Below are positions 1-10,724 of a stretch of 10,724 nt of DNA, in pieces (positions within the stretch are counted from its first letter, which is position 1; each line of letters begins with the position of its first letter). The translations under genes were made by a program, and so were the position numbers. The notes beneath the pieces were generated by a model. The model ran no database searches, was not told where the DNA came from, and saw nothing but the letters and a program-made list of their open reading frames with translations. This stretch comes from Thermodesulfobacteriota bacterium (lineage in GTDB: Bacteria; Desulfobacterota; Desulfomonilia; Desulfomonilales; Desulfomonilaceae): NCBI GenBank assembly GCA_030837305.1, contig JAUPKT010000369.1:1-10724 (forward strand), given 5' to 3'.

Positions 1-125
1 TGTAGCGCTTTATCAGGCGATCCAAAAGCTTTGATCAATCGTGCGATTGACAGAGGACCAATTCCCGGAACACGCTCGAGAGCCAACCAATGAAACAACG
101 ACGACTGATTCTTGGATTCAGCCAC
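1..125 (-). CDS. dprA: DNA processing protein DprA, N-terminal part (cut by window edge)
   Basis: The first 41 codons of a minus-strand gene that continues past the left edge. From a GTG at 125-123 it reads MAESKNQSSLFHW, then LALERVPGIGPLSIARL, then IKAFGSPDKAL. The VPGIGP helix-hairpin-helix signature followed by a 'LxxAFGSPxxAL' stretch is the typical N-terminus of DprA/Smf. That family loads RecA onto incoming single-stranded DNA during natural transformation and is also widespread in non-competent bacteria. The Rossmann-like core lies outside the window, so the call rests on the N-terminal region only. GTG is chosen because GGAG lies at 138-135, nine bases upstream, and no in-frame ATG is nearby. 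The gene starts 54 bases after the LysM gene and is probably cotranscribed with it, an arrangement I recall from deltaproteobacteria. Confidence 0.85.
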   Translation of the reverse strand, partial: MAESKNQSSLFHWLALERVPGIGPLSIARLIKAFGSPDKAL

Positions 126-134
126 TACTTACAA

Positions 135-138
135 CTCC
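135..138 (-). promoter_or_regulatory. Ribosome binding site of dprA
   Basis: GGAG on the minus strand (within TTTGGAG), nine bases before the GTG start at 125. It decides the non-ATG start of dprA. Confidence 0.6.
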
Positions 139-179
139 AAATGTGCGTAAAGCTCGAGTCACAAAGTCAAAGGGGCAAG

Positions 180-1286
180 TCAATCTGACACACTCTTGAT
201 GATGTCCCCCGGCATGATTTCTTCCCTGGAGCGTGTTATCAGAAGACTAGAATTTTTTTCGAATGCTTTCAATACAATTCCTTCTCCCAAATAGGCATCA
301 GGTGTTGAAACCCATCTCGGAAAATACGGATCGCTAACCGGTTCTGCTGGTCTATATACGTTAACCAGAGTTCCGTCACGCACGCCATCGCATTCTCCAC
401 GATCAACGAAAACGATGTCATTTTCCAAGTTAATAGCCGTGGATGGATTGGCTTCCTTACTTGCAGAAACCACAATGGTGCCGGTAAACATTTTATGCGT
501 TTTTGAAGGGACAATCTGTCGTGTCCGGGGTGCATAAAAACAAATCTTGTCACCCCGCTCTATCTCAACATAACTTTCCAGTATAATACCGGTAATCAAG
601 TCATGTCCTGTGCTGGTTATTTCAACTTCCCCCACTACGTCGGTGAGATAACCTATTTCCCTATTTGCATTCACGGGATGATACAAAGGGCCACGGTCAC
701 GATATATTCCGAATCGATCACCAACGAGAACGACCTGCTTTTTCGAGGCACGGAAACGAACATAAATGAGGTCTCGCTCCAAAAACCGCTCTTTGTTCCT
801 TTCAATGCCTGAAACGATGTAGCCCCATGGTACTGTCGGATCCGAACTGAGTCTGTATCTAAAAAATTGCTTGTCGTAAGGGATGCCTTCAAAGGGCACT
901 TTGTTGACAAGATATCGGACATCGTCAGGAAGACCTGTTGGAGGAGTGTAGGTCTCGTCAGCAGCCCCCCGTGGGAGCTTTGATTCATAAAAAAACACCT
1001 TTGTCCCGGGGGAAAGCTCACTGTCTAATGGATTTGGAGAATTCCGGGCAGGAGATATCCACGGATTTTGACTCCAGAGAAGCTTTCCCAAACGCGAGTC
1101 GGAATAGTATTTTTCGGCAACACTGGAGAGAGAATCGCCTAACTGAGCAATATATTCCCCTACTGGGCGAGGGAAAATCTCAAAAGCGTATGAAGGTGCT
1201 TCAAGAAAGAGAGAAACCACAAGCACTGAGATCAGGCGAAGGCGTGTTGGTCCATTAAAAACCGTGGGGAGCGTCACAACCACCAA
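180..1286 (-). CDS. Exported LysM-domain protein with a duplicated C-terminal beta domain
   Basis: A 368-residue protein. Residues 15-35 look like a signal peptide (RLRL, a hydrophobic run, then APSYA before FEIF), so the product should be exported to the periplasm. Residues 44-100 form a LysM module (EYIAQLGDSLSSVAEKYY, ending SPGTKVFFY), a peptidoglycan-binding fold. The rest looks beta-rich and contains two related units. One runs from VVLVGDRFGIYR to VEIERGDKI (about residues 185-249). The other runs from DIVFVDRGECDGVRDG to REEIMPGDII (about 292-364). Both end with a '(I/V)xxGD(K/I)I' turn, and the style resembles FlgT C-terminal-like repeats. The start is uncertain: the longest reading begins at a TTG (1286-1284), with in-frame GTG codons at 1283 and 1277 and no ATG near. 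The gene has its own promoter and precedes dprA. A cell-wall-binding role is likely; the exact function is unknown. Confidence 0.85.
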   Translation of the reverse strand: MVVVTLPTVFNGPTRLRLISVLVVSLFLEAPSYAFEIFPRPVGEYIAQLGDSLSSVAEKYYSDSRLGKLLWSQNPWISPARNSPNPLDSELSPGTKVFFYESKLPRGAADETYTPPTGLPDDVRYLVNKVPFEGIPYDKQFFRYRLSSDPTVPWGYIVSGIERNKERFLERDLIYVRFRASKKQVVLVGDRFGIYRDRGPLYHPVNANREIGYLTDVVGEVEITSTGHDLITGIILESYVEIERGDKICFYAPRTRQIVPSKTHKMFTGTIVVSASKEANPSTAINLENDIVFVDRGECDGVRDGTLVNVYRPAEPVSDPYFPRWVSTPDAYLGEGIVLKAFEKNSSLLITRSREEIMPGDIIKSVSD

Positions 1287-1316
1287 CCTATGGTTTAATG
1301 TTGGCCACCAACCTAT
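1280..1316 (-). repeat. Two 12-bp direct repeats at the start of the LysM gene
   Basis: The plus-strand word CCACCAACCTAT occurs at 1280-1291 and again, identical, at 1305-1316, a 25-base period. On the minus strand it reads ATAGGTTGGTGG. The upstream copy begins about where transcription from the promoter at 1324-1352 should start. The downstream copy contains the TTG start codon and the following GTG. It could be an operator, a site acting in the leader RNA, or a chance duplication. Confidence 0.6.
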
Positions 1317-1323
1317 TTATATT

Positions 1324-1352
1324 AAAATAGTTTTTTCTGATACCGATGTCAA
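1324..1352 (-). promoter_or_regulatory. Sigma70-type promoter for the LysM-dprA unit
   Basis: On the minus strand a perfect TTGACA (1352-1347) is followed by exactly 17 bases and then TATTTT (1329-1324), four of six matches to TATAAT. Transcription should start near 1317, giving a leader of only about 30 bases before the LysM start codon. The promoter lies in the 171-base gap after the GlmS-like gene (1287-1457). That gap otherwise holds the 12-bp repeats and no convincing terminator. Confidence 0.65.
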
Positions 1353-1457
1353 GTGTTTTGGGGCCATAGCTCGATTCGATTACAAGACCGGAGCACGCGC
1401 GCTGACGTAGCACAGGTGAGCAAGTATGACCCAACAGCAGGGGGGAGTTATGTTGCG

Positions 1458-4400
1458 CTACTTCATCTTGCCCAAAACAAGGTTTTCAACGGGTGTGAGA
1501 ACTAGATCTCTCGGAGAAACGCTCCCGAGAAAATCATCGAGCGAATAAGTCTGAGTAGAGTCTTCCAATCTCTCAATTACATCATAATATCGATTCCCTA
1601 ATCCCTTTAACACTCCGAGCTTCTGCTGAAGAGATGCCTGCTCGGCGAACACCACGTGGAACAGGAGTAGCCCCATACAATCACCGTTTCTGTCGGGATA
1701 TAACGGAACAATAAGCAAACTTTCCTCTCCTAATCTTCCAGAACTCCATATTGCGCGTCGCATTCTGAGGGCAGTGCGTTTTGTGCCGCCTGCACAGCTC
1801 GGTTCGTCATAGCGCGACGATTTTATTTCGCAGATGCCGTATCTTCCCACTGTCTGGATATACGGGGAATCAGGTGGACACGCAGGCAGCAATCCCTCGG
1901 TATCCGGCAAGACCCTATAATACAAACCTCCCTCTACATCAGTAATGATGGGAGACAGGTTTCTCAGCATGCGCATGTCTGATTCTCTGATTTGATCGAT
2001 GCGTCCGCACAGTTTCTCAATTGCCATAAGTAAAATAGGAGTGAGTAATTCCTGCGGTCTGGAGATTCCTACGGTAACGGTTTTGGCCTGGTGCCGTATC
2101 GTATCGATGGGGCGAGTAACCTCCTCTAGAGCCCTCTTGAGAATGGCTATGCCTTCGGTAAGTGCATCAGAAGGTAGTTCCCTCCACTCGTAACTCCCCG
2201 TGGATTCATAATAGAGTGACAAGGCCGCCACCGTTGATGCGGGCAACGCAGCGTCCATCTCGCCTCGTCCGATCATTCGCATCAGTTCACTAAATGTCGA
2301 CCGGAATCCAGATGGATTCCAACGCGACGGATCATCCAGGGCTATAGTAAGCATGGAACGCAAATCTCGCAGTATTTCTGCTCTCGCGTCAATTGCCTTG
2401 GCAGCATAAAAGCCCCAGAGATGACCGGCGACGGTTGCCGGGACAAATCCCAAGCCTGCTCCGGTAGAAGGCACCATAATCATGCTCTCCGCGTACCCCT
2501 GGAAGCGATGCTCTCCGCGAGAACAAATAACCAGAGGCTTACCGTTATGGGCCTTAAATATGCTCACTTCCTTTACCGTATCTTGCACAATTTGCTCAGG
2601 TAGATCGTTGGCTACCACGATGGTGAGAGGTTCCGTCGACAAATCAATATGCTTCTTGTCCTCAGTGAAATCACAGGGTATGGATTTGTAACAAAGCTCG
2701 CTAAGTTTAATCCTGATCTCGTCGGCTGCTATCTTGTTGGGTCCGTTTCCAACTACTGCCCAATTCCTGCTGCTCGGTCCATACGTGTCCGCAACATCCC
2801 GTATGTGGTCCGACTGATCCAAAACCCATTGAACATCCGCTGGAAGCCTCTCAAGCTCCTCTATTTCCTGGTAGATTTCCTCATCCGTTAAACTGCCGAA
2901 TTCTTGAGCAAGCAGCAATGCTGTTAACTTTCCCGCTGCAATTTGAGAATAAAATGCTTTTGTCGAGGCGACGGCCATCTCAACGTCTCTCCCGTCACTC
3001 GTATAAAAATATGAGTCGGCCTTTTCCACCAGGGGCGAGTTGCGCCTGTTTACTATTGCATGAATCCATGCGCCCTGTGATCCCGCAAGATCCACGGTAC
3101 GATTTGTGTCAGTCGTAGTACCGCTTTGTGAAATGGCAATGAGCAATGTGTCATCCTGGGGTTCGTCAGAGGCAAATCCAGACATTTCCGAAGCCTTGTT
3201 CCAATCAGCTCTGATACGAGCCCTAGCCAATGCCTTGCCGACCAAATGTGCGATCCCCATTGCAGCAACCGAGGCTGTCCCCTGTCCTATCACCATCACT
3301 CGCCTGATCTGAGGCAAAGCCGAATCTCTCAAACGGCTCATGAGAACCCCAAAACTGTCATACCCCTCAGTATTAAAATGAATTTTCCCAGATGCTTTTC
3401 GATACTTGCCTTTGATTGTCTTCCGTACACTTGAAGGAGCCTCGCGAATCTCTTTCTCAAAGTAATAATCGTAACAGTCACGAAAGATATCTCGGGAATG
3501 AATATAAATTGTCTCTCTTCTTGGCTGAAAAGACTCCTTGTCCTCAAGATACCTCCCTCTAAACACGAAGTCCTTAGATTCCCGGCATTCCAGAATGACC
3601 TCTGTCCCACCATGCTCGGCTCCGGAGAGACCGTAAGAGGTTCTGGTGAGGGCAGCCAACCCGTAGACCTCGGAGGCCAGTATCACGCCTTCCCTGATCT
3701 TACCAACGAACAGACTCTGTCCACTCCCCTTTTGTGCGAGAAACAACGACTTTGGGGCAAGTGGATGCTGCATTACAACCGCCAAGGAACCCTCGCACAG
3801 ATTCATTAAGTCAGCGAAGCGATCTTCCAAGGGTCGTGTATGGTCTGTTCCCAAGCGAAAGGCTATGGGCAATATCTTGGCATCAGTCGTAACATTGGGA
3901 TCAATTGTGAAACCTCTGTCCTCCACGAGTCGAAACCGAAGATCTTGATAGTTATCGACGTCGCCATTGAGCACAAAGAGTGCCGGTCTGTCACCGAAAG
4001 TTGATTCATCCTCTTTGCCGGAAAGACTCCCATCGGTTGGGTGGCAGTTCGGAAGGCTGATAATCCCATTAGAGGCCCAGCGTGTATGAGAGATGACACT
4101 GATCTGACGAAGCCCGGGAGCCATCTCCCACAAGGCCTTATCTCCTCGAATTCTGTTTCTCAAGGCCGCAGTATTGTCTCCAAGTCGTCCTACCAAATTG
4201 GCTACCTTGTAAACAAAAGTTATCACCAGGGAGCCATCGGGATGAGTCAGTGCATGAACATTGCGCCGCACACCGTTTTCAACATCTTCGAGTCCAGGAG
4301 CACCAGCAAGCAGGGAGGGCCAATCTCCATTATTCCAAGCCGTCTCCTTGGAGAAAAGGCATTGTATGGAGATGCCCGCCGAGTCACGACCACGCACTTC

Positions 4401-4883
4401 CAGACGGTCCAAATTTCCCAAGACCTGCTCAGTAGTCCAGGCAAGGAAAGCCACCCCCTTATCCATTTGGATATCGGCCGCCTCTATAGGCATCAGCTCT
4501 TTGGCTCTCATCGCTCCGCCGACAACTTCCCGTTCCAACTGCCATATAAGGTCTCTGAGATGTTCCGAAACTCTCTCCAGATCTTCGGAAGGGCCTTGCT
4601 CGTTGATCACGTTCTCGACCTTTCGATATGAAGTCTCGAGAAGCTCTTTCAGGCAAGTGACACTCTCTAAAACACGTCCTCCATCCATTAAGCGCTTATG
4701 AAGCCCAAATGACATGAGGTCATCAAATTTGCTCGTCAGGTCCAAGAGAGTTCGTTCCACTGAATCTAGAGAGGATTTACCCCTCAACTCTATTCCCAAT
4801 TGGCTAACAGTCTCATCAATCCAGGAGAGATCGATATCAGCATCCCACGATTCACTACTCAATAGACCGGCAATTCCGCACAC
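1458..4883 (-). CDS. Oversized GlmS-like protein: glutamine amidotransferase plus two SIS domains, with extra segments
   Basis: This 1141-residue protein resembles glucosamine-6-phosphate synthase (about 610 residues in E. coli), which makes glucosamine-6-P from fructose-6-P and glutamine in the cytosol. It begins MCGIAGLL with the nucleophile Cys2. GATase landmarks follow: RGRDSAG (164-170), SHTRWASNG (265-273), NG at 306-307 and D334. SIS1 keeps SQSGTTTD (585-592) and VASTKAF (638-644). SIS2 keeps E722, K726, E729 and H745, aligned without gaps to E. coli E481, K485, E488 and H504. K934 in AKTVTV matches the Schiff-base Lys603. So all three steps (glutaminase, isomerase, transfer) look intact. 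Additions are a helical charged insert at about 10-143, extra length at 171-260, an insert at about 833-920, and a 200-residue tail after K934. His77 of E. coli is Asn272 here. Whether it is the cell's main GlmS or a specialised relative cannot be told. Confidence 0.85.
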   Translation of the reverse strand: MCGIAGLLSSESWDADIDLSWIDETVSQLGIELRGKSSLDSVERTLLDLTSKFDDLMSFGLHKRLMDGGRVLESVTCLKELLETSYRKVENVINEQGPSEDLERVSEHLRDLIWQLEREVVGGAMRAKELMPIEAADIQMDKGVAFLAWTTEQVLGNLDRLEVRGRDSAGISIQCLFSKETAWNNGDWPSLLAGAPGLEDVENGVRRNVHALTHPDGSLVITFVYKVANLVGRLGDNTAALRNRIRGDKALWEMAPGLRQISVISHTRWASNGIISLPNCHPTDGSLSGKEDESTFGDRPALFVLNGDVDNYQDLRFRLVEDRGFTIDPNVTTDAKILPIAFRLGTDHTRPLEDRFADLMNLCEGSLAVVMQHPLAPKSLFLAQKGSGQSLFVGKIREGVILASEVYGLAALTRTSYGLSGAEHGGTEVILECRESKDFVFRGRYLEDKESFQPRRETIYIHSRDIFRDCYDYYFEKEIREAPSSVRKTIKGKYRKASGKIHFNTEGYDSFGVLMSRLRDSALPQIRRVMVIGQGTASVAAMGIAHLVGKALARARIRADWNKASEMSGFASDEPQDDTLLIAISQSGTTTDTNRTVDLAGSQGAWIHAIVNRRNSPLVEKADSYFYTSDGRDVEMAVASTKAFYSQIAAGKLTALLLAQEFGSLTDEEIYQEIEELERLPADVQWVLDQSDHIRDVADTYGPSSRNWAVVGNGPNKIAADEIRIKLSELCYKSIPCDFTEDKKHIDLSTEPLTIVVANDLPEQIVQDTVKEVSIFKAHNGKPLVICSRGEHRFQGYAESMIMVPSTGAGLGFVPATVAGHLWGFYAAKAIDARAEILRDLRSMLTIALDDPSRWNPSGFRSTFSELMRMIGRGEMDAALPASTVAALSLYYESTGSYEWRELPSDALTEGIAILKRALEEVTRPIDTIRHQAKTVTVGISRPQELLTPILLMAIEKLCGRIDQIRESDMRMLRNLSPIITDVEGGLYYRVLPDTEGLLPACPPDSPYIQTVGRYGICEIKSSRYDEPSCAGGTKRTALRMRRAIWSSGRLGEESLLIVPLYPDRNGDCMGLLLFHVVFAEQASLQQKLGVLKGLGNRYYDVIERLEDSTQTYSLDDFLGSVSPRDLVLTPVENLVLGKMK

Positions 4884-4890
4884 GGTAAGG

Positions 4891-4896
4891 TCCTTT
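4891..4896 (-). promoter_or_regulatory. Ribosome binding site of the GlmS-like gene
   Basis: AAAGGA on the minus strand, seven bases before a GTG at 4883-4881. This fixes the start so that Cys is the second residue, as the N-terminal-nucleophile mechanism requires. The ATGs further upstream are out of frame. Confidence 0.65.
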
Positions 4897-4907
4897 CGGG
4901 TTTGTCA

Positions 4908-5906
4908 TCATTTTCCTAGGGGAGCATTTTGTTTCGGTAACGGTGAAGGCTTTGTCCTTATGGAAGGGGCAAGTGATGTTGGACGAAAAATTGTTTTCAG
5001 TTCCGTGAGAGTTGAGGAGGATATGAGGCCTTCAGCCTCCAATTTTGTTAATCGGTCTCGCTTTGTCTTCGCATCTGCTTTCAGGAACCCAGGATCAGAA
5101 ACCAGCAGTCGCCAGGCCGGCAGTTTCTCTAACTCTCTCTTGCTCTGCGCTGTTATGAGGCCTTTCTTTTCCCAGTCACGTAAACGCTCTAATCGTTCAA
5201 GGGGCGATGCGGATTGGTATTCGTTATCTAAAGCCAGGGCTTCAGCGGCAAGTACGCTCTCAACAGGCATCCTATAATGCCATCCAATGAGTTTTCCATC
5301 CTCCATTTTTTTCAGCATATTCAAGGCATCCAAAGGCCCGACAAAGCTGTCGCTTCTTGAACCGAAAATCACCGCACCTCCATAGAGTCGCGCATATGAC
5401 AAAGCCACAGAAGCTTCGACCAATTTTTTTTGTTCCAACTTTGAAATCAATTCCAGTCTCTTGATGGGAGAACTCTTGAGATAAGGTGTTTTGTTTACCA
5501 GATATTCCGCTAACAAAATACGGTTGAGGAAATCTCTCGGTATTTTGAGTTGTCCTAATTTGTCGTCACTGACGAATTCCGTCCAGCGTCTCAGACGATC
5601 CAAGGGATCAGAGGGTTCCCTCAAGTACTGATCTCCCCAGTCCAGCAGAGCAAATGACAGGTCGGTGTTCTTCAGCTTCTTTTCGTGCAATAAATCCGAA
5701 GCTAATCTCAAACTCGACAAAGGGTCTCTGCCCTTAAATTGCGGAGCATCAATAACTCCTGACACAATATCCACAATTTCGTAAGCCGGAACACCCGGCA
5801 CAGAGGCAAACAACAATCCCCACGCAAAACAGATGAGCATTCCCAACTGAAAGAATCTTCCCTTCTTGTGGGACAAAGATCCAAAATCTTTTTGATGACA
5901 ACCCAT
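4908..5906 (-). CDS. Exported protein of six tandem ~44-residue helical (SHOCT-like) repeats
   Basis: I do not recognise this protein as a named family. From the ATG at 5906 it has 332 residues; an in-frame TTG at 5939 would add 11. The N-terminus has a basic stretch (SHKKGRFF), a hydrophobic core (LGMLICFAWGLLFASV) and a likely signal-peptidase site after GVPA, so it is probably periplasmic. The mature part is helical and repetitive. Units begin (TTG numbering) at residues 72, 111, 157, 201, 245 and 289, each with the pattern (D/S/G)-P-L-x-x-L, about ten residues, then KL or GLI. The clearest unit has SPLERLERLRDWEKKGLI and looks like the SHOCT oligomerisation motif. Residues after about 320 are Pro/Lys-rich and probably disordered. 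The gene ends 24 bases before the GlmS-like gene, so the two are likely cotranscribed. Its role is unknown; oligomerisation or scaffolding is an inference. Confidence 0.75.
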   Translation of the reverse strand: MGCHQKDFGSLSHKKGRFFQLGMLICFAWGLLFASVPGVPAYEIVDIVSGVIDAPQFKGRDPLSSLRLASDLLHEKKLKNTDLSFALLDWGDQYLREPSDPLDRLRRWTEFVSDDKLGQLKIPRDFLNRILLAEYLVNKTPYLKSSPIKRLELISKLEQKKLVEASVALSYARLYGGAVIFGSRSDSFVGPLDALNMLKKMEDGKLIGWHYRMPVESVLAAEALALDNEYQSASPLERLERLRDWEKKGLITAQSKRELEKLPAWRLLVSDPGFLKADAKTKRDRLTKLEAEGLISSSTLTELKTIFRPTSLAPSIRTKPSPLPKQNAPLGK

Positions 5907-6031
5907 GTGGCCAGAGCCGGTTTCCTGATTGCTTTTCAACTGAAGGTCATCTTAGAATAAAAAGTTAGGCAAGCAAAGATTTTTTTCGGAACCTGAGGTG
6001 TCCATCCGGCCATGCTCAAGATCACTTTTCT

Positions 6032-6058
6032 TCCTACCATGATGTTATATTGGTAGGA
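6032..6058. promoter_or_regulatory. 8-bp inverted repeat upstream of the PHP gene, possible operator
   Basis: TCCTACCA at 6032-6039 and TGGTAGGA at 6051-6058 are perfect reverse complements separated by 11 bases that contain TTATAT. The AT-rich centre could be a -10 element (TTATAT 6045-6050 or TATATT 6046-6051) for the plus-strand gene starting at 6081, although I see no good -35. The site lies in the 174-base divergent gap between the repeat-protein gene and the PHP gene. A repressor operator or a leader hairpin are both possible. Confidence 0.5.
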
Positions 6059-6068
6059 CAAGAATGAG

Positions 6069-6073
6069 AGGAG
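6069..6073 (+). promoter_or_regulatory. Ribosome binding site of the PHP gene
   Basis: AGGAG, seven bases before the TTG at 6081. It supports a TTG start; the ATG at 6064 is out of frame and gives only a six-codon peptide. Confidence 0.65.
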
Positions 6074-6080
6074 AATTCTG

Positions 6081-6737
6081 TTGATCGACTTTCACACCCA
6101 TACACTCTTTAGCGATGGAGTCTTGAATCCCAGCGAGATGGTTCGACGTGCCCGCGTGAAAGGTTATCGAGCTATAGCTCTTACGGATCATGTTGACGGT
6201 TCCACGCTGGATTTCGTTCTGCCGAGGATAATTAAAGTATCCAGGGAACTCAATCATTTTCAGCCAACGATTGTAATCCCGGGGGTCGAAATAACTCATG
6301 CGCCGCCGGCACAAATCCCGGACTTGGTGGAACAAGCGAGAAAGTTAGGCGCTCGCGTCGTGCTGGTCCACGGCGAATCCCCCGTGGAGCCGGTGGAGCC
6401 CGGGACAAACCGTGCCGCTATTGAAGCAGGGGTAGACATCCTTGCGCATCCAGGCTTTATCAATTTGGAGGAAGTTCGATGGGCAGTACGGAATGGAGTC
6501 CGGCTCGAGATTACCGCAAGGTCCGGGCACAGCCTCACCAATGGGCATGTGGCGAGACTGGCTCGTCAAGCAGGTGCCCTCCTCGTAATCGATACAGATG
6601 CGCACGCTCCTGGTGATCTCATCACCCGGGAAAGAGCCGGGCAGATCCTCGTGGGAGCAGGTCTGGATGAGAAACAGGCTGAAGAAGTGCTTGCGAACAA
6701 CGAGAATTTGCTGCACACCGTTTTCCAGGCAGGATGA
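6081..6737 (+). CDS. PHP-domain metal-dependent phosphatase (histidinol-phosphatase-like)
   Basis: This 218-residue protein is a stand-alone PHP domain, the family of metal-dependent phosphoesterases that includes histidinol phosphatase and the exonuclease domains of some DNA polymerases. The metal-binding motifs appear in order: FHTHTLFSDG (H5, H7, D12), LTDH (D36, H37), PGVE (E70), VHGE (H97), LAHPG (H123), and DTDAHAPGD (D173, H175). GVRLEITARSGHSLTNGHV is typical of the short subfamily annotated as 'histidinol phosphate phosphatase domain-containing protein'. Length matches that subfamily. The start is a TTG with a good AGGAG; the H5/H7 motif sits right at the N-terminus as usual. No histidine genes lie nearby, so the substrate is open and a true role in histidine synthesis is not shown. 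It is cytoplasmic, with no signal peptide. Confidence 0.85.
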   Translation: MIDFHTHTLFSDGVLNPSEMVRRARVKGYRAIALTDHVDGSTLDFVLPRIIKVSRELNHFQPTIVIPGVEITHAPPAQIPDLVEQARKLGARVVLVHGESPVEPVEPGTNRAAIEAGVDILAHPGFINLEEVRWAVRNGVRLEITARSGHSLTNGHVARLARQAGALLVIDTDAHAPGDLITRERAGQILVGAGLDEKQAEEVLANNENLLHTVFQAG

Positions 6738-6768
6738 CTTGCGGTTCGCGGAGTCCATCACAACTATC

Positions 6769-6790
6769 ACAGTGAGAAAGATTTCACTGT
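6769..6790 (+). other. Short hairpin after the PHP gene
   Basis: ACAGTGAGA pairs with TTTCACTGT (nine pairs, one G-U) around an AAGA loop, 32 bases after the stop codon. There is no following T-run, so it is at best a weak or factor-assisted terminator or an mRNA end stabiliser. The rest of the 231-base gap before sppA holds only the sppA promoter and leader. Confidence 0.3.
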
Positions 6791-6893
6791 CATTAAAGAG
6801 CGGTCCCCATGTCGATCCTGGAATTTCCCGACGCAATTAGGGAGCCTGGTTCAAATCAGTGAAAATCACCGAACTTGCGGGCACTCCATATTT

Positions 6894-6920
6894 TTGATAG
6901 AGTTTATTATTCTGTATTAT
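6894..6920 (+). promoter_or_regulatory. Likely promoter of sppA
   Basis: TTGATA (6894-6899, five of six matches to TTGACA) and TATTAT (6915-6920, five of six to TATAAT) are separated by 15 bases, shorter than the ideal 17. Transcription would start near 6927. The TTG of this -35 box is the longest possible start of the sppA frame, so that longer start is unlikely to be used. Confidence 0.45.
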
Positions 6921-6968
6921 GCAGGAAGAAACGCCATTGTAGTCGCACGAGACACCTCGAAACTTGAG

Positions 6969-7874
6969 ATGAAACAATCCCGAACAAAAAAAGCCCTTCT
7001 GGCCCTTCTTATAGTCGTAGTGGTTTTTGTGGGAATTTCTCTTCTCCTCTCAAGGAATTCCAATGACGATAGGGCATGGGGGAGTTGGTTAGATCTTGTG
7101 GAGTCAAACAAAATAGGGGTGGTAAGTCTCGAGGGAGAACTAATCTCTTCTGATGACATCCTAAGGGATATTAGAAAATTTCAAAAGAAATCGTCTGTAA
7201 GGGCCATTGTAATTCGAATCAACTGCCCCGGTGGTGCGGTGGCGCCAGCCCAAGAACTTTATGAGGAAATCAAGAGAACCCGCAGAAAGAAGCCGGTAGT
7301 AGCCTCAATGCAAACCATAGGAACCTCGGCTGCATATTACGTTGCGAGCAGCAGTGACAAAATTGTTTGTTCAGCAGGAACCATAACGGGGAGCATTGGA
7401 GTCATCATGATGCTCGCGGACCTGGAGAAAATTGTCGAGCGGGTCGGAGTGAACGTGAGAGTGATCAAAGCGGGAAAGTACAAAGATATAGGATCTATGC
7501 TACGACCCATGACAGAAGAAGAACACACGATACTCCAGGATTTTGCAACGCAAATTCACGAGCAGTTCATACAGGACGTGGCACAGGCGAGAAAAGGTAA
7601 AATACAGGAGCATGAACTTCGTGCCATTTCCGATGGAAGGTTCTTCACGGGTGAAAAAGCGAAAGAAATCGGTTTGGTCGATGCTATGGGGAATTTCTAT
7701 GATGCAGTAAAGATAGCATCTGAACTGGCCGGCGTCAAAGGGGAACCAGAACTCATTTACCCCAGGAAAAAATGGGAAAGCTACCTGGAGCTTTTGGCGG
7801 AATCAACGTTAAACGTTATAGCCAGAGTATTTAGTGCTTCAAAGCATGTTCATTCCGCTGTAGATCTAAGGTGA
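6969..7874 (+). CDS. sppA: Signal peptide peptidase SppA, short membrane-anchored form (family S49)
   Basis: From the ATG at 6969 this is a 301-residue serine protease that cleaves leftover signal peptides in the cytoplasmic membrane. Residues 9-27 form one transmembrane anchor after a basic start (MKQSRTKK), with the catalytic part outside. S49 landmarks are NCPGGAVAPAQEL (85-97), the serine loop IGTSAAYYVAS with nucleophile Ser120, GTITGSIGV (137-145), and the lysine motif KAGKYKDIG with general base Lys172. This is the single-domain type, as in Bacillus, rather than the duplicated E. coli form. The two residues after Ser120 are Ala-Ala where Gly-Gly or Gly-Ala is usual. A TTG at 6894 would add 25 residues but overlaps a likely promoter. 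The ribosome site before 6969 is weak. It is probably its own unit, 231 bases after the PHP gene. Confidence 0.9.
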   Translation: MKQSRTKKALLALLIVVVVFVGISLLLSRNSNDDRAWGSWLDLVESNKIGVVSLEGELISSDDILRDIRKFQKKSSVRAIVIRINCPGGAVAPAQELYEEIKRTRRKKPVVASMQTIGTSAAYYVASSSDKIVCSAGTITGSIGVIMMLADLEKIVERVGVNVRVIKAGKYKDIGSMLRPMTEEEHTILQDFATQIHEQFIQDVAQARKGKIQEHELRAISDGRFFTGEKAKEIGLVDAMGNFYDAVKIASELAGVKGEPELIYPRKKWESYLELLAESTLNVIARVFSASKHVHSAVDLR

Positions 7875-8041
7875 AGTATGGGAGCCTCTGCGATAAGTCC
7901 TAGTACTAAGCACGGACTTTATTGGTCTGACGAGTGCTTGCCGCATACAACACGAAAGGAAAAGTTTGGAATTTCTTATGAGTCCATCACGTATTGAACT
8001 GTCGGCGAGACGAGAAATCGTCCGTCGATGCACAGAGCATT

Positions 8042-8046
8042 GGAGG
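8042..8046 (+). promoter_or_regulatory. Ribosome binding site of guaB
   Basis: GGAGG, seven bases before the ATG at 8054. It selects this start over an in-frame TTG at 7994, whose extra 20 residues do not look like IMP dehydrogenase. The 179-base gap after sppA shows no convincing promoter. Confidence 0.7.
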
Positions 8047-8053
8047 TCGCGGA

Positions 8054-9511
8054 ATGGCCGTCGAAGAATCTCTCACATTTGACGATGTAATTCTTACCCC
8101 ATGCTACTCGGAGGTCTTACCTTCTGATGTCGAAGTGAGCACATTATTGACTCGGGAGATCCGCTTGAATATTCCCCTGGTGAGTGCGGCCATGGACACG
8201 GTTACCGAGTCGGAGATGGCCATAAGTTTAGCTCGTCAAGGCGGGATTGGGATCATCCATCGCAACTTGACCATAAAGCAACAGGCCCGAGAAGTGGACA
8301 GGGTAAAGCGCTCAGAGTCAGGAATGATCGTTGACCCAATCACCATCGCCCCGGACCAAAAAATTGCCGATGCCCTGAATATTATGAAAAAATATCATAT
8401 ATCGGGTGTCCCCGTCACGGTCAACGGCTATCTCAAGGGAATATTGACCAACAGAGATCTTCGTTTTATCGAAGACTTGGACATCAAAGTTGAATCGGTC
8501 ATGACCAAGGACAACCTCGTGACCGTTGATGAAAAGATAGGAATCAACGAGTCTAAATCTCTTCTTCATAAATATCGCATTGAAAAACTCCTGGTCGTTG
8601 ATTCCGAAAATCGACTCAAGGGATTAATCACTATTAAAGATATTCAAAAGGCAATTACCTATCCCGATTCATCAAAGGATAATCTCGGCCGGTTGAGGGT
8701 AGGTGCGGCAGTGGGTGTCGGCCCCGATCGGGAAGAGAGAGTTGATGCCCTCCTTAAAAGAGGCGTAGACATCATCATCGTTGATACGTCCCACGGTCAT
8801 TCCAAGAATGTGTTGGATACAATCCGGCAACTCAAAAAGACGTTTCCCGGCATCTCCGTGATAGGGGGGAATATAGCTACCCCCGAGGCAGTGGAAGACC
8901 TCGTCAAGGCGGGTGCCGACGGAGTCAAAGTCGGAGTTGGCCCAGGATCCATCTGCACGACACGCATCGTAGCCGGAGTAGGGGTCCCACAGATTTCAGC
9001 TATCATGGATTGTGCCGACAAGGCTGACAAACTTGGAATACCTTTGGTCGCCGACGGCGGAATAAAGTTTTCCGGAGATATCACCAAGGCTCTTGCGGCT
9101 GGAGCACATTCTATCATGATCGGTGGATTGTTTGCCGGAACGGACGAGAGTCCGGGAGAGATAGTGCTATATCAGGGGCGGTCATACAAGTCCTATCGGG
9201 GCATGGGATCACTGGAGGCAATGCGGGAGGGGTCCAAAGACCGATATGGCCAGCATGAGGGAGTCCCGGAACACAAACTCGTGCCGGAAGGAATCGTTGG
9301 TATGGTGCCGGCCAAGGGTCCGGTGGCCCACTCAGTGAATCAACTTATCGGCGGCCTCAAAGCGGGAATGGGTTATCTTGGAGCACACAATCTCGAAGAA
9401 CTGCGAAACAGAGCACGCTTCATTCGTATCACCTCAGCAGGTCTTAAAGAATCTCACGTGCACGATGTAGTGATCACCAAGGAAGCTCCCAATTATCGAA
9501 TCGAGTCATAG
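8054..9511 (+). CDS. guaB: Inosine-5'-monophosphate dehydrogenase
   Basis: A 485-residue enzyme, the usual length, oxidising IMP to XMP with NAD as the committed step of guanine nucleotide synthesis in the cytosol. It opens with [17 protein letters not shown], then [10 protein letters not shown]. Two CBS domains fill about residues 92-200 (MTKDNLVTV and [11 protein letters not shown] are typical); in bacterial enzymes these bind nucleotides and tune activity. The catalytic loop [11 protein letters not shown] places the nucleophile at Cys301. [19 protein letters not shown] binds the phosphate, followed by GMGSLEAM (384-391), and the mobile flap has R397-Y398, the Arg that activates water. No key residue is missing. 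argC starts 20 bases after the stop, so the two are likely cotranscribed. Confidence 0.97.
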
Positions 9512-9531
9512 TGAACTCTGGACATGAATAA

Positions 9532-10569
9532 ATGGTAAGAGTGCTCATATTCGGAGCCACTGGTTACACCGGCATTGAACTTATTCGTCTTCTCAGCGGG
9601 CATCCGGATGTGCGGATTGTTGGCGGCACGTCACGTGACTGGGCAGGAAGAAGAGCGAGCGATGCTCTGCCATATCTTTCTCGTAAGCAGGATTTCCCTC
9701 TCCTCAGTATCGCTGACATGACTGAAAAAGCAGGCGAAGATTTAGCCTTTCTTGCCCTCCCCCATGGTCAATCTGCCTTGACTGCCGAAACATTACTGGA
9801 AGCAGGATTGAAGGTGATAGATTTGTCTGCTGATAGCAGGCTCAACGACGTGACTGTGTATCAAAAATGGTATGGCGAGCATCAGGCGCCCAACATTCTG
9901 GAAAAAGCAGTTTACGGACTCCCGGAAATACACCGTAGCCTCATAAAAAAAGCAGATCTTGTCGCCAACCCAGGGTGCTATCCCACAACGGTCTTGCTCG
10001 GACTTGCTCCACTCATGAATCTGAAGGAACTGGATACAGACTGTCCCATAGTTGACTCCAAATCAGGCGTTTCAGGCGCAGGGCGGGGAGCGAAGCTCAC
10101 CACGAGTTTTTGTGAAGTCGGTGAGGGCTTTAAACCATATGGGGTATTGAGGCATCGACACATTCCTGAAATGGAGCAAGAACTGACCCGCCTTGGCGGC
10201 CGGACGATAAAAGTTCGATTTACCCCGCATCTTATCCCTGTCTCTCGAGGCATGGTGAGTACTATGTATATCCCCATGAGAGACGATACAAGTGGATCGG
10301 CACTCAGAGAAATTATCACCGGTTACTACGAAAAAGAAACTTTTGTGCGAGTCTTGCCGGCGGGTGTTTATCCGGATACCGAGAGAATCAAAGGTTCGAA
10401 TCAGTGTCACATAGCGGTGGAGGTTGATGAGCGCACGGGATGGGTGATCATTATGAGCGCTATAGATAATCTTGTCAAAGGCGCTTCAGGCAATGCAGTT
10501 CAGAATATGAACCTTATGGTCGGTCTCGAAGAGACCACCGGCCTCACGGGACTCCCCATCTTCCCCTGA
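9532..10569 (+). CDS. argC: N-acetyl-gamma-glutamyl-phosphate reductase
   Basis: A 345-residue enzyme, matching the family length. It reduces N-acetylglutamyl phosphate to the semialdehyde with NADPH, the third step of arginine synthesis. The N-terminal Rossmann motif is FGATGYTGIEL (7-17). FLALPHGQSA and VIDLSADSRL follow. The catalytic site is NPGCYPT with the acylated Cys149, and RHRHIPEMEQE with catalytic His210. DSKSGVSGAGRGAK and the C-terminal NLVKGASGNAVQNMN are family hallmarks. The start ATG at 9532 sits immediately before the nucleotide-binding strand. Its ribosome site is weak (TGGA), so translation may depend on coupling with guaB upstream. Confidence 0.97.
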   Translation: MVRVLIFGATGYTGIELIRLLSGHPDVRIVGGTSRDWAGRRASDALPYLSRKQDFPLLSIADMTEKAGEDLAFLALPHGQSALTAETLLEAGLKVIDLSADSRLNDVTVYQKWYGEHQAPNILEKAVYGLPEIHRSLIKKADLVANPGCYPTTVLLGLAPLMNLKELDTDCPIVDSKSGVSGAGRGAKLTTSFCEVGEGFKPYGVLRHRHIPEMEQELTRLGGRTIKVRFTPHLIPVSRGMVSTMYIPMRDDTSGSALREIITGYYEKETFVRVLPAGVYPDTERIKGSNQCHIAVEVDERTGWVIIMSAIDNLVKGASGNAVQNMNLMVGLEETTGLTGLPIFP

Positions 10570-10598
10570 GGTGGTGGACGGTCCTTCTGAACAAGACT

Positions 10599-10685
10599 CG
10601 ATTCATGAAAAAGCGTAGGAGCCGAACAGACAATTGGCCGGTAAAGCCACACCCGATTTAGGACATACATTTCACGATTCATGAA
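10599..10685 (+). repeat. 11-bp direct repeat pair downstream of argC
   Basis: CGATTCATGAA occurs at 10599-10609 and again at 10675-10685. The second copy lies just before the ribosome site of the next gene. I see no terminator hairpin in this 136-base gap, so the next gene may be in the same transcript. The repeat may be coincidence. Confidence 0.3.
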
Positions 10686-10692
10686 GACACCG

Positions 10693-10698
10693 AGGAGG
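10693..10698 (+). promoter_or_regulatory. Ribosome binding site of the last gene
   Basis: A perfect AGGAGG, seven bases before the ATG at 10706. It is the strongest ribosome site in the window and suggests a well-translated gene. Confidence 0.7.
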
Positions 10699-10705
10699 CT
10701 GAAGG

Positions 10706-10724
10706 ATGTCCACTGAGGAAAAAA
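10706..10724 (+). CDS. Start of an unidentified gene (cut by window edge)
   Basis: Only six codons are present (MSTEEK), too few to identify the product. The evidence is the ATG placed seven bases after a perfect AGGAGG and the same orientation as guaB-argC. It starts 136 bases after argC and could belong to the same operon. Confidence 0.55.

Follow-up and report, generated by a model that had tools for sequence, protein, structure and literature searches.

GlmS, a drug target, catalyses the first committed step in making amino sugars, and roles in the enzyme are assigned to Cys1, Glu488, His504 and Lys603 (all from PMC9272926). A relative of this enzyme is encoded in the stretch of DNA analysed here (10,724 nucleotides; 'the window'), which comes from a Thermodesulfobacteriota bacterium of the Desulfomonilaceae (assembly GCA_030837305.1, contig JAUPKT010000369.1, forward strand positions 1-10,724). 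At 1,141 amino acids (aa) the protein is nearly twice as long as E. coli GlmS (609), as the first-pass annotation had pointed out, and it belongs to a real, intact and divergent GlmS lineage, for which the label GlmS-L is used here. Judged from sequence, GlmS-L is probably (at a rough probability of 0.87) the cell's glutamine:fructose-6-phosphate amidotransferase (glucosamine-6-phosphate synthase), an old separate lineage standing in for canonical GlmS. Residues, fold, clade, near exclusion of canonical GlmS and gene neighbours in relatives are what the data show; its catalysis, its substrate and any regulation are what we infer. Residues are numbered on the mature protein from Cys1, that is, one below the numbers of the first-pass annotation. 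The gene starts with GTG at 4881-4883, directly followed by the Cys codon (4878-4880), and its parts are as follows.

1458..4883, minus strand: the whole long GlmS gene (GlmS-L), 1,141 aa plus stop, from the open reading frame (ORF) listing and from full-length relatives of the same length.
4891..4896, minus strand: AAAGGA, a possible ribosome-binding site 7 bases upstream of the GTG, read in the sequence.
4857..4880, minus strand: opening strand of the glutaminase domain, which carries the nucleophile Cys1 (CGIAGLLS, mature 1-8), from the alignment; strand 2-8 in the structure model.
4461..4856, minus strand: insert A (about mature 9-140), helical in the model, from alignment and model.
3501..4460, minus strand: remaining glutaminase domain (mature 141-460), including R267-W268, N305-G306 and D333; the interval from R163 to R267 is 57 residues longer than in E. 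coli GlmS.
2367..3500, minus strand: isomerase core, SIS1 plus SIS2 (mature 461-838), with SQSGTTTDT, VASTK, K725/E728 and KKH744-ID, from Pfam SIS (1.3e-14), alignment and model superposition.
2094..2366, minus strand: insert B (mature 839-929; about 91 residues), which separates SIS2 from the catalytic C-tail and is mostly helical, from alignment, model and conservation.
2058..2093, minus strand: catalytic C-tail A932-K933-T-V-T-V-G-I-S-R (K933 is E. coli K603), from conservation and the motif in the loci.
1461..2057, minus strand: C-terminal domain (mature 942-1140), of alpha/beta type with a weak likeness to GAF/PAS and a helical end.

By the paired residues of the alignment, GlmS-L has 532 residues more than E. 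coli GlmS: 137 between C1 and R26 (E. coli numbers; R26 is R163), 57 between R26 and R73, about 46 scattered over later blocks as far as K485, a further 90 from H504 to A602, and 202 beyond K603. The first-pass annotation had placed the additions between the catalytic blocks, which holds for the inserts up to the C-tail and fails for the roughly 200 residues after the Lys603 block. Mean identity to relatives is highest in the C-tail (99%), followed by the isomerase core (72%), and is 30-45% in the inserts and the C-terminal domain, with insert A at 30%.

Two sets of sequences were aligned: (i) 98 sequences, namely the window protein and 97 of the best 120 of 7,620 protein-search matches; (ii) 80 loci, retained out of 558 confirmed ones, from a search with the patterns EDKKHID and [AS]VASTKA[FY]Y, which contain H504 and the VASTK stretch, so that this set is not an independent test of either. 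The E. coli residues C1, R73, N98/G99 and D123 of the glutaminase pair with C1, R267, N305/G306 and D333 of GlmS-L, those of the sugar-phosphate loop (S347/Q348/S349/T352) with S584/Q585/S586/T589, and those of the isomerase (E488, H504, K603) with E728, H744 and K933, respectively. All the catalytic residues named at first pass thus line up with the E. coli enzyme, and all are identical in 98 of 98 sequences, except C1 (95, with 3 gaps). Among the 80 loci, R73, N98, G99, D123, Q348, S349, T352, E488, H504 and K603 are unchanged throughout, the motif AK[TS][VI]TVG[IT] is present in every locus, C1 is present in 77 (3 gaps), and S347 is S in 60 and T in 20; a sub-branch that includes loci L168 and L170 carries TQSGTTTDT in place of SQSGTTTDT. 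Other positions set the lineage apart: S303A, T76S, R539H and S604T are fixed in 80 of 80 loci relative to 21 of 21 canonical sequences aligned, and E351T, found in 79 loci (S in one), likewise differs from all 21. KHGP is replaced by KHID in all 98 aligned sequences (in the 80-locus alignment both columns fell on gaps).

The checks proposed at first pass, a protein search and a structure model against E. coli GlmS, yielded full-length relatives and a predicted GlmS fold that superposes on the E. coli enzyme across its whole length; the C-tail is poorly modelled (predicted local distance difference test <50 at 927-944). The best 120 of the 7,620 matches are 983-1,179 aa long, with 46-93% identity over 86-100% of the query. 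As these relatives have the same length, the protein represents an established long family and not a fusion artefact. Some members are already named glutamine-fructose-6-phosphate transaminase in one source. The first-pass annotation had held that a described, widespread subfamily would undercut its claim: the family is indeed widespread, and a literature search without most subscription journals found no description of a long, extended or divergent GlmS. Besides the SIS match, Pfam gave a GATase_6 match just below its cut-off, and the scores of the NCBIfam GlmS models, 217.6 and 196 bits, fall far short of the respective cut-offs (381 and 418); annotation by the TIGR01135 cut-off therefore misses GlmS-L.

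A maximum-likelihood tree of the isomerase part was built from 32 long forms, the GlmS of E. coli, 20 further canonical GlmS and 6 SIS-only proteins, with the root placed arbitrarily on the SIS-only protein L160 (a seventh SIS candidate, of 77 residues, was left out for length). All 32 long forms fall into a single clade (support 100), whose stem measures 1.75 substitutions per site, apart from all 21 canonical GlmS and not among them. The SIS-only protein L162, on a long branch, is the sister of this clade.

The two forms of GlmS nearly exclude each other. In the phylum sample described below, 'long' matches were those with E <1e-100, a cut set after a gap between 1e-136 and 8e-38 was seen. 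The only strong GlmS match in the window genome is the window gene, and the search for a second, normal-length glmS suggested at first pass found none above the cut-off in this assembly, which is 82% complete; the next-best match (C209, a frame of 492 residues that covers model positions 1-224) resembles PurF in its length and matched range. The long form is present, in some cases in pieces, in 34 of the 41 genomes searched as relatives; 4 carry the canonical form, 1 carries both (G012) and 4 carry neither. A phylum sample of 296 genomes (completeness at least 90% except the window's own) gave the long form in 38, canonical GlmS over the cut-off in 241, both in 1 (G194) and neither in 18. Co-occurrence was thus seen once among the 296 against about 31 expected (p 2.7e-32, ignoring kinship). 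The 38 long-form genomes span 17 families, and three families (f1, f32 and f47) contain both types. Canonical GlmS was also found in 1 (G333, behind locus L039) of the 49 genomes that lie behind 49 of the 80 loci and were picked for holding the long form, some of which are apparently the same as earlier-sampled genomes (match coordinates agree). By record title, the 80 kept loci include Desulfomonilaceae, Desulfobacterales, Azospirillum, Niveispirillum, Ahrensia, Oricola, Eremiobacterota, Armatimonadetes, Riflebacteria, Planctomycetota, Myxococcota, Acidobacteria and Acidimicrobiia; L089 and L095, titled Bifidobacterium breve, look mislabelled.

Gene neighbours in relatives point to the hexosamine pathway. 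In 12 of 19 genomes of family f2, a glmM match above its cut-off is found no more than 1.7 kb from the long match, the best glmM match being on a different contig in the other 7. In 7 loci (most titled Actinomycetota or Acidimicrobiia, one Acidobacteria), glmS-L has a member of the glmM cluster directly upstream, from a 28-base overlap to 223 bases away. Locus L170 has four genes in a row: glmS-L, one whose product is similar to the C-terminal half of GlmU, glmM (over its cut-off) and a nagB-like one (below its NCBIfam cut-off, above Pfam's). In L089, glmS-L is followed by acpS, an nnr-like gene and alr, with glmM cut by the contig end. The best GlmU match spans only about the first 320-346 of 452 model positions in 20 of 23 f2 genomes, and GlmU may thus be split there. 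Next to glmS-L and glmM lie proteins of 411-437 aa whose resemblance to GlmU is confined to its C-terminal half (L170:4170-5405 and L168:70-1383; 5e-13 and 4e-11).

Within the window's own family, Pfam and NCBIfam identify the neighbouring products as a PHP protein, SppA, an IMPDH and an argC-like dehydrogenase, in an order that recurs by eye in G014, and glmU lies 9 to 20 kb from the long gene in four genomes (G002, G003, G011 and G014). Downstream of the long glmS in the window, positions 180-1286 (minus strand) encode a secreted-looking protein of 368 aa with a LysM-like start by eye, for which neither Pfam nor NCBIfam gave a match; in G014, too, the long gene is followed by a similar-looking protein (L171:305-1030, by eye). 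Upstream and on the same strand, the 343-aa protein of 4908-5939 (minus) likewise had no Pfam or NCBIfam match. No Rfam family reached its gathering score within the window.

The C-terminal domain (about 200 residues) had no convincing Pfam family, and its profile, run against PDB sequences, produced a single chance-level match. It is absent from five loci titled Pseudodesulfovibrio/Desulfovibrio (L035, L037, L038, L040 and L047), whose proteins, of about 941 aa, end a few residues past the C-tail; the genomes behind them showed no canonical GlmS over the cut-off, and among ORFs of at least 90 aa in the loci themselves no profile match to a detached C-terminal domain was found. Two of these forms (L035 and L038) nest inside the long clade, which suggests that the domain was lost. 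Five further loci (L058, L074, L092, L096 and L101) also gave no domain match. As about 190-200 residues follow the C-tail motif there, they were not counted among the loci without the domain, and the miss was ascribed to ORF choice; their longest ORFs cluster separately, with the cluster representative on the opposite strand. A fold match to the large glutamate dehydrogenase (GDH) L-GDH180 (PDB 7jsr) spans the whole domain, and large-GDH genes occur in 15 of 24 genomes tested, with none in the window genome. A module common with large GDH was considered and rejected (hhalign probability 0.2, E 0.34, with 11 of 14 GDH stretches, the motif having missed 3), and the match was kept as a weak fold hint. 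A sensing role for this domain, weakly GAF/PAS-like as it is, is plausible.

A possible leader precedes the catalytic Cys in one sub-branch, to which the window protein does not belong. A start codon stands directly before Cys in 38 of the 80 loci (30 ATG, 8 GTG) and not in 32 (L056 to L108; for example, L107, L060 and L094), while the motif found no Cys near the frame start in 10. In 30 of the 32, the farthest in-frame ATG lies 39-62 residues before Cys, the other 2 frames starting too late, and a stretch like '(Y/E)(F/W/I)G(K/R)..P......(I/V).(L/F)FP' recurs by eye before Cys. However, GTG or TTG is found only 2-18 residues before Cys in several of the 30. The leader is possibly a propeptide, and since a free N-terminal Cys is needed, it would be removed by cleavage.

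In the proposed reaction, Cys1, exposed after Met removal, would hydrolyse glutamine, and ammonia would move to the isomerase site, where Lys933 (Schiff base), Glu728 and His744 would act on the fructose-6-phosphate side to yield glucosamine-6-phosphate, which would then feed GlmM and GlmU. The parts added to this core, inserts A and B and the C-terminal domain, may serve in assembly and/or metabolite sensing.

A decayed or regulatory GlmS relative without catalysis could account for the low score against the GlmS models, but it is already contradicted by the sequence evidence, as the catalytic residues are invariant, the frame is intact, relatives are full-length and of the same size, and canonical GlmS over the cut-off is absent from 33 of 34, 37 of 38 and 48 of 49 long-form genomes; we give it next to no weight. 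The first-pass view of an active, elaborated enzyme rather than a decayed one is instead favoured by the invariant residues, the whole-length superposition, the near exclusion and the glmM adjacency elsewhere, and its suggestion of a regulated or specialised form is plausible. A homologue that handles another ketose phosphate, or makes another product, for a dedicated glycan, with glucosamine-6-phosphate coming from elsewhere, would fit the fixed substitutions at S303, E351, R539 and G505-P506 and the long stem branch of 1.75 substitutions per site. It is nonetheless improbable, given that the residues for glutamine hydrolysis, phosphate binding and isomerisation are retained and that both the near exclusion of canonical GlmS and the glmM, GlmU-like and nagB-like genes beside the long gene in relatives speak for the standard hexosamine pathway. 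A glucosamine-6-phosphate synthase in which the C-terminal domain, perhaps with inserts A and B, acts as an allosteric sensor, likened to the feedback of UDP-N-acetylglucosamine on the eukaryotic enzyme, is a fair possibility that falls somewhat short of even odds. Somewhat more speculative is a broader picture, in which GlmS-L would be an ancient second glucosamine-6-phosphate synthase lineage over many phyla, repeatedly swapped with canonical GlmS and allosteric through its own sensor domain, and in one large sub-branch (many Desulfobacterales loci and others) a precursor switched on by cleavage before Cys1 behind the conserved leader.

Several observations weigh against GlmS-L as the cell's glucosamine-6-phosphate synthase. 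Its TIGR01135 score is 196 bits against a curated cut-off of 418.05. In the window's own family no glmM over the cut-off was found near the long gene, and in the window genome glmM is a weak 68-bit match only and glmU is in two pieces. As that assembly is 82% complete, a canonical copy could be missing from it. Three genomes carry both forms (G012:C578, G194:C30 and G333:C35), and neither form passes the thresholds in 4 of 23 f2 genomes and 18 of 296 in the phylum sample. Furthermore, substrate or kinetics could be altered by the substitutions fixed in or close to the isomerase site (S303A, E351T, R539H and HGP to HID), and the catalytic C-tail is modelled with low confidence. Among the genomes concerned, G012 has two glmM matches over the cut-off and 5% contamination, and G199 and G204, both among the 18 with neither form, have canonical-like matches below the cut-off. 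In G026 (99% complete) no GlmS was found; a gap is possible there, as its glmM and GlmU-like genes run into the contig end.

If GlmS-L is the glucosamine-6-phosphate synthase of these cells, bacteria scored as lacking GlmS by the model cut-off rely on a giant form of it, whose active site is partly different and which carries an extra domain, and metabolic reconstructions are affected. The Pseudodesulfovibrio forms would then offer a natural system for comparing an essential bacterial enzyme with and without a possible sensor domain.

Among known systems, L-GDH180 has a different catalytic core from GlmS-L, and no sequence support links the two. SIS-only phosphosugar isomerases and deaminases (NagB-II and the like) have no glutaminase domain, and the six SIS-only proteins sampled fall outside the long clade. 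The insert of GFAT itself sits elsewhere than the additions of GlmS-L. The matched chains of human GFAT-1 (PDB 6r4g), of 640-663 residues, are without additions of such size. With canonical GlmS (E. coli GlmS, PDB 2j6h/1jxa), GlmS-L shares the domain order, the N-terminal Cys nucleophile, R73/W74/N98/G99/D123, the phosphate loop SQSG..T, S401, K485, E488, H504, the C-tail AK(S/T)VTV and superposition over the whole length, whereas its 1,141 residues against 609, the changes S303A, T76S, E351T, R539H, S604T and HGP to HID, and its separate clade distinguish it.
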